Position numbers and translations under genes: made by a program. A DNA stretch of 64,000 bases. It comes from Lachnospiraceae bacterium (GTDB taxonomy: Bacteria > Bacillota > Clostridia > Lachnospirales > Lachnospiraceae). Of this stretch, positions 31,030-51,296 are shown piece after piece. Below the pieces are notes generated by a model that saw nothing but the letters and a program-made list of their open reading frames with translations, did not search any database and had not been told where the DNA came from. The stretch is taken from the NCBI GenBank assembly GCA_014804265.1, contig JAAVAC010000017.1, positions 44,385 through 108,384 of the forward strand, in the 5' to 3' direction. The first letter of the stretch is position 1, and every line of letters begins with the position of its first letter.

Positions 31030-31232
31030 TGTCCAAAACATTAAAATTAGCTTTTTATATGATATAACTTTAAATAATTTTGAAATCTGGGAGAATCAAT
31101 TTTTATATTTTACTTTTTATTAGTAGTCTTAATTTTAAATAAGATATAACATACAATCTTCATTTTCATATTCCTCTCAATTTAAAATATGTAGATTCAA
31201 ATATACCAATCCATAATTCATATCGAAACCCA

Positions 31233-31370
31233 ATAGGAGCTGCAATATAGTAGTTTTGCAGGCCTTCATGAAAGTGTCAGTCCTTACGCACCGTACTTTG
31301 GTGCGTTAGTACTGCTACGCTTTCATAGAGTGCGAACGTGCCCAAAAAACTACTATATTGCAGCTCCTAC
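31233..31370 (-). repeat. Full copy (C2) of the dispersed structured element
   Basis: Minus strand: GTAGGAGCTGCAATATAGTAGTTTT...ACGCACCAAAGTACGGTGCGT...AAAACTACTATATTGCAGCTCCTAT. Confidence 0.9.
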
Positions 31371-31420
31371 GTTCTCTTTCTATATCCCAATTTTTATAAT
31401 CATCTTTCTTCGAAATTAAT

Positions 31421-38402: not shown

Positions 38403-38523
38403 GAGCTGCTCCTGATTGTTTTTCTTGAAAATTTGGTGTATTTGAATAACACTGTAAGTTTACCATAAATTTTTTAAATAGTGAAGAGGAGAAATGAGAA
38501 GGAAAGGTTTTGGATAAGAGGAC

Positions 38524-38670
38524 GTAGGAGTGGGCAGATGATAGATAAGTCTTTTGGCACGCTCTCGCTCTATGAAGACGCAGCGGTACTAACGCACCAA
38601 AATACGGTGCGTAAGGACCGGCGCCTTCATCAAGGCCCGAAAGACTTATCTATCATCTGCCCACTCCTAC
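38524..38670 (+). repeat. Full copy (C3) of the dispersed structured element
   Basis: GTAGGAGTGGGCAGATGATAGATAAGTCTTTTGG ... CCGAAAGACTTATCTATCATCTGCCCACTCCTAC arms around the conserved core. Confidence 0.92.
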
Positions 38671-38817
38671 TGTGTATTGAAAAGCCCTTTTATTCATATT
38701 TGCTTCATAAAAGACATTAGAGCTATAAAAACTTCAAAATAAATATATTTATACTTCCCTGAAATACGAAAACGTAAATTTTTTTACTTTTCTAAGATTA
38801 GAGCTTGAGAAAAAACA

Positions 38818-39043
38818 GCAAAAGAGGAAGGTGGTTGGATTCTCTGCATTGTTTTTGATAAAGCTTTTACTTAACAGCCTGCCCACAACCCAGGGTAAAA
38901 TTGCCATGGACGGTAATTTTAGTCATATTGCGCCATGAAGGGCGCTATATGACGACCCGGCCGCTACCAACAACCTTTCCAGGCTGTTTAGTAAAAGCTT
39001 TATCAAAAACACAGCAGAGAATCCAACCACCTTCCTCTTTTGC
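38818..39043. repeat. Giant quasi-palindrome, 64-nt arms plus two internal hairpins
   Basis: Left arm 38818..38881 pairs with right arm 38980..39043 with few mismatches; internal hairpins AAAATTGCC/GGTAATTTT and GTCATATTGCGCC/GGGCGCTATATGAC. Confidence 0.92.
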
Positions 39044-51027: not shown

Positions 51028-51064
51028 TGAGAATTGGTTTAGATATAGGTTTTGAATGGGGGAC

Positions 51065-51212
51065 GTGGGAGCAGTCATAGTATATGATAATCTTCTTGGC
51101 ATGCTTTCGCTCTGCAAAGACGCAGCGGTACTAACGCACCAAAATACGGTGCGTAAGTGCCGGCGACTTTGCCAAGGCCCGGAAGATTATCATATACTAT
51201 CACTGCTCCCAC
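51065..51212 (+). repeat. Full copy (C4) of the dispersed structured element
   Basis: GTGGGAGCAGTCATAGTATATGATAATCTTCTTGG ... CCGGAAGATTATCATATACTATCACTGCTCCCAC arms around the conserved core. Confidence 0.92.
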
Positions 51213-51296
51213 TGGGTATTGGAAAACCATATGCTTTATTTTAAATATTTAAATAAATAGTTATTTATGATAAACATCCACTTGGTATGCTGAAAA

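Follow-up and report, generated by a model that had tools for sequence, protein, structure and literature searches.

The 64-kb window analysed here, meaning the whole stretch of DNA under study, carries three similar hairpins of ~160 bases each, which raise the question of whether they are a selected structured RNA or a DNA element that depends on its fold. An earlier note had described these three copies (C2, C3, and C4), with their self-complementary arms, shared core, and nested stems, as one unnamed structured element, and this description is borne out in place and in kind: the core motif has three matches in the window, where chance would give 0.01, no Rfam 15 family matches the hairpin at the gathering score, and relaxed matches are at chance level. 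A covariance model trained on 24 copies (R1) recovers only these three copies in the window (Table 1) and ~85 in the source genome. We name this hairpin family HP1. It is probably a structure-dependent module belonging to small non-autonomous transposable elements of Lachnospiraceae, with mobilisation of a putative IS66 type and arms that template switching would keep paired. The earlier reading thus holds in part, having overlooked the mobility, the inverted ends (TIRs) and target duplications (TSDs) that bound young copies, and the coupling to the Rfam family TwoAYGGAY.

Table 1. Coordinates of HP1 and TwoAYGGAY features within the 64-kb window
Feature	Position	Strand	Evidence and remarks
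HP1 copy C3, whole hairpin	38521..38679	+	R1 covariance-model match, 175 bits, E 4e-38
C3 left arm	38524..38555	+	Variable, self-complementary; basis: sequence; mirrored substitutions in orthologue L123
C3 conserved core, 82 nt	38556..38637	+	Small UNNC hairpin, helices, near-invariant loops; identical in L123
C3 right arm	38638..38670	+	Basis: sequence
TwoAYGGAY module, composite partner of C3	38816..39046	+	Rfam core 38848-39013; long self-complementary arms; ends GCGTCC
HP1 copy C4, GCAAAG subtype	51062..51221	+	R1 match, 174 bits
HP1 copy C2, the most divergent window copy	31224..31373	-	R1 match, 140 bits

Some details of the original description require amendment. The boundary quoted there, CTGGGTATTGGAAA, is present at C4 only; the 3′ boundary reads CTCCTACTGTGTATTG in C3 and CTCCTATTGGGTTTCG in C2. 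The outer arms are self-complementary as described, but they are not wholly unrelated between copies, with AGTCTT/AAGACT and GGCA among the strings common to most of them. The apical hairpin, reported as invariant, shows compensated variation elsewhere in the family. C4 lies ~100 bp past gyrA, and C3 is 119 bp upstream of mnmE. The folding z-score of C3 is −12 as RNA and −13 as DNA, and its promoter-like or terminator-like sites do not rise above those of shuffled sequence.

The source genome of the ~85 copies comprises 2.55 Mb in 72 contigs. Four sister species contain at least 46–72 HP1 matches each, and other Lachnospiraceae genera contain 1–18 matches (up to ~20 copies). Of 294 genomes drawn from the class and searched under strict filters, with no more than 13 candidates scored in each, 7 contained HP1, all of them Lachnospiraceae; Robinsoniella sp. 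and Eubacterium sp. MSJ-13 are among the named carriers. The core pattern was not found in the viral contigs scanned, and no match in phage, plasmid, and viral collections was convincing. Contigs often stop within HP1 or TwoAYGGAY elements (G000:C4:98, the ends of C34 and C43, and several contigs of genome G002), so assembly-based copy numbers are lower bounds. As a hairpin module of mobile elements, HP1 is real and uncatalogued, and it was found here only in Lachnospiraceae. A gene starts on its 5′ side at 44 of 61 copies in the source genome (p = 0.0007) and at 23 of 33 in G003, two counts that are not independent since many sites are common to both genomes.

Young copies in this genus lie within ORF-less MITEs of 184–234 bp, which have 14-bp inverted ends (GTAACAGTTCAGCC) starting with GTAA and 8-bp target duplications. 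Perfect 8-bp duplications flank 10 of 23 end pairs (mostly 184–234 bp apart, with two of 56 and 63 bp and a nested one of 1,843 bp); perfect repeats of 5–7 or 9–12 bp flank none, and mismatched flanks, as a control, never exceeded 6 of 8 positions. The TIR pattern TAACAGTTCAGCC matches 306 times in G002 and 18 times in the source genome, against 0 for the reversed pattern, and sister species differ at orthologous sites in whether they have an HP1 insertion. The window copies have neither TIR nor TSD, their best TIR match having the 5–6 mismatches expected by chance, and we therefore infer their mobility from these relatives; they would be old insertions whose recognisable ends have decayed and whose arms and core have been kept. 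Copies of other genera, where inspected, also lack such a TIR.

The ends themselves point toward IS66. In genome G005, GTAACAGTTCAGCC occurs ~40 bp past an IS66-family ORF that is split over two frames (L252), and in another genus it lies upstream of an IS66 N-terminal ORF (L254); the direct repeats of IS66 are likewise 8 bp (PMC3281130). Each of the two loci shows one end, an intact IS66 element with both ends was not seen, and IS66 was undetected in the copy-rich genomes G002 and G003. Because IS66-family elements have the same end, a transposase of this type may move HP1 elements in trans. Two other candidates were set aside: RAYT/Y1, as no HP1 copy lies beside a PF01797 match and the copy-rich genome G001 has no such match, and an IS4-family transposon with the same TIR (L230), which is not the autonomous parent but is nested inside an HP1 copy. 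This transposon (L230/L288; G003:C9:256256-258176) occupies the apical hairpin, with GCACTTACGC as its 10-bp duplication; a further copy (L092) is also interrupted there, and the HP1 apex may be an insertion target.

Older HP1 copies form the left module of ~0.5-kb composites, the right module of which is TwoAYGGAY (RF01731). The two are paired at 29 of the 85 source-genome copies, TwoAYGGAY always being downstream and in the same orientation, and one locus (L219) retains the full 578-bp composite with both TIRs and a TSD matching at 7 of 8 positions. The large clusters among recurrent neighbour genes of HP1 proved to be spurious ORFs of the repeat itself, and the partner was recognised through them. 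No RF01731 match falls over HP1. TwoAYGGAY is itself dispersed and multi-copy in all genomes of the genus (32 matches in the source genome, 89 in G002), with long variable self-complementary arms beyond the Rfam core. At four loci (L004, L010, L066, and L088), HP1 pairs in opposite orientation, 240–350 bp apart, replace the HP1–TwoAYGGAY pair.

Within HP1, a long stem of nearly arbitrary sequence bears the 82-nt core, which comprises a small hairpin of 2 bp capped by a UNNC loop, a helix and an apical stem that both vary, and the strings ACGYAGCGGUACUAA and UAAGURCCGRCGU. Loop positions are near-invariant among 93 distinct cores. Across 20 sequences from this and other genera, 93% of cells pair, compared with 25–37% in slid controls, and G-U is confined to one position, where seven sequences have it; the cross-genus covariation score of 0.582 (0.187 when shuffled) was reached by 0 of 500 shuffles. 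Constraint was assessed from 22 random source-genome copies, with orthologous sites located by flank sequence alone. The core was retained at 18 of the 33 sites so found and absent at 15, a few of the latter being cut by contig ends, and no half-decayed core was seen. Retained cores diverge by 4.6% (~95% identity), and a single copy truncated by a contig edge accounts for all of their gap positions; adjoining noncoding DNA diverges by 12–16% with 20–31% gaps. A previous estimate of 3.4% core divergence was discarded as biased, the copies having been fetched by the core pattern itself. Given the near-invariant loops, the helices that covary across genera, and the survival of the core while neighbouring DNA diverges, the core appears to be under constraint as a folded strand, whether DNA or RNA; conversion between copies could account for part of the conservation. 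Two structural variants were also observed: a 192-nt form whose 3′ internal loop contains an additional CCCCGATCTTGTATCGGGG hairpin (L084, L085, L086, and L089, at ~1501-1692), and a mirror copy (L087:1501-1675) whose right core half reads as the reverse complement of the left core half of a different subtype, an arrangement that probably arose through recombination between inverted neighbours.

The compensatory change described for the three window copies is upheld in the ~85 copies of the same genome and across genera. Among 30 orthologous pairs with ~7% flank divergence, 150 arm changes are two-sided and 14 one-sided, some of these comparisons involving arms that mirrored indels have shifted; for the 16 pairs of a strict subset the counts are 14 and 9, so that one-sided changes are not rare, and 0.76 two-sided changes would be expected under independence. 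Between C3 and its orthologue in a sister species (L123), one arm differs by three substitutions, and every one of them has its mirror in the opposite arm. In 144 distinct arm sets, 53 of the 3,495 interior pairs (counted without the three outermost pairs and those adjoining the internal loop) are mismatched, as 19 G-U, 20 A-C, and 14 other; an apparent G-U excess (66 vs. 28) disappeared once the excluded pairs were dropped. Because arm changes show no G-U preference, the arms look DNA-corrected, and the claim that compensatory change here denotes a selected structured RNA is not supported in the form in which it was made; the alternative offered beside it, a DNA element that depends on its structure, accounts for the evidence no less well than RNA does. 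Template switching is a known process by which hairpin stems are kept paired (PMC8794818), and the lack of wobble bias together with the mirrored indels suggests that such arm-to-arm copying at the DNA level maintains the pairing of HP1 arms.

These data bear on several other explanations. HP1 could be a functional structured RNA, alone or in one transcript with TwoAYGGAY, in which selection on the RNA keeps the pairing and transposition has spread the copies. Invariant loops, cross-genus covarying helices, and conservation of the core after insertion would all follow, as would the fixed side and orientation relative to TwoAYGGAY, itself rated a probable RNA (PMC2864571), and the bias in gene starts. 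However, G-U pairs are not in excess in the arms and are confined to one core position across genera, the promoter- and terminator-like sites of C3 are at background level, and orientation to genes is biased rather than fixed; we regard a functional RNA as rather unlikely. The wobble depletion fits DNA, and HP1 might instead be a candidate folded single-stranded site for a recombinase or HUH transposase, comparable to integron attC or REP sequences. Its design resembles attC in poor inner sequence conservation, conserved boundaries, and loop asymmetry (PMC2727003), and the CGTCC at the foot of both the HP1 and TwoAYGGAY modules recalls CGTC-tagged repeats (PMC3733652). Such a site is nonetheless unlikely: young copies move with TIRs and 8-bp TSDs, as DDE elements do, HP1 is far longer than REPs, and the Y1 domain (PF01797), missing from the copy-rich genome G001, is not flanked by HP1 where it occurs elsewhere.

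An ordinary decaying MITE, with core conservation reflecting nothing beyond recent common descent, would explain why copies are polymorphic between species and why TIRs decay. We consider this very unlikely, as flank-found cores remain 95% identical, with gaps only in the contig-edge copy, while their neighbours decay, and as other genera share this core and these loops.

Under the preferred reading, that of a structure-dependent module of non-autonomous elements, replication would occasionally copy one arm from the other, so that arm sequence could drift freely, but in pairs, and the folded strand would require the conserved unpaired bases of the core as a signal to a putative protein. It is possible, albeit doubtful, that HP1 and TwoAYGGAY both serve as recognition modules in a single element of a new kind, where a putative protein reads the conserved loops of the folded strand (DNA or RNA) and arm-to-arm copying keeps drifting arms paired. 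If so, TwoAYGGAY, catalogued as RNA, would be part of a mobile element; the composites already tie this orphan Rfam family to one. Covariation is the standard proof of functional RNA, and here it is strong in a mobile DNA hairpin without a wobble signature, which makes HP1 a natural test of how much "RNA covariation" is template switching. For counting paired arm changes, the family offers dozens of orthologous pairs at the same locus.

HP1 resembles several known systems. Like integron attC sites, it has variable self-complementary stems, conserved boundaries, and strand-asymmetric unpaired bases, but its copies are dispersed rather than set in cassette arrays and are without heptamer R boxes. 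REP, CGTC-tagged palindromes, and ERIC-like repeats are also dispersed intergenic palindromes with CGTC at the foot; however, REPs measure 20–40 bp and their GTAG types accompany RAYT genes, whereas HP1 measures ~160 bp and no RAYT link was found. MRSC-65-2 (PMC11109978) is a multi-copy motif with a long covarying stem, the structure of which is possibly relevant as DNA, but it has UYCCGG repeats and occurs in several phyla, in contrast to the different core of HP1 and its occurrence here only in Lachnospiraceae. TwoAYGGAY shares with HP1 a conserved core within long variable self-complementary arms, as well as the same composite; the core and loops of HP1 differ, and HP1 occurs in genera whose inspected loci are without TwoAYGGAY. 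IS66-family MITEs share the 14-bp GTAA ends, the 8-bp duplications, the lack of an ORF, the many dispersed copies, and the IS66-type end. Unlike these, HP1 has an interior made up of a folded, conserved core and of arms that are hypervariable yet perfectly paired, and its oldest copies keep both core and arms after loss of the ends.
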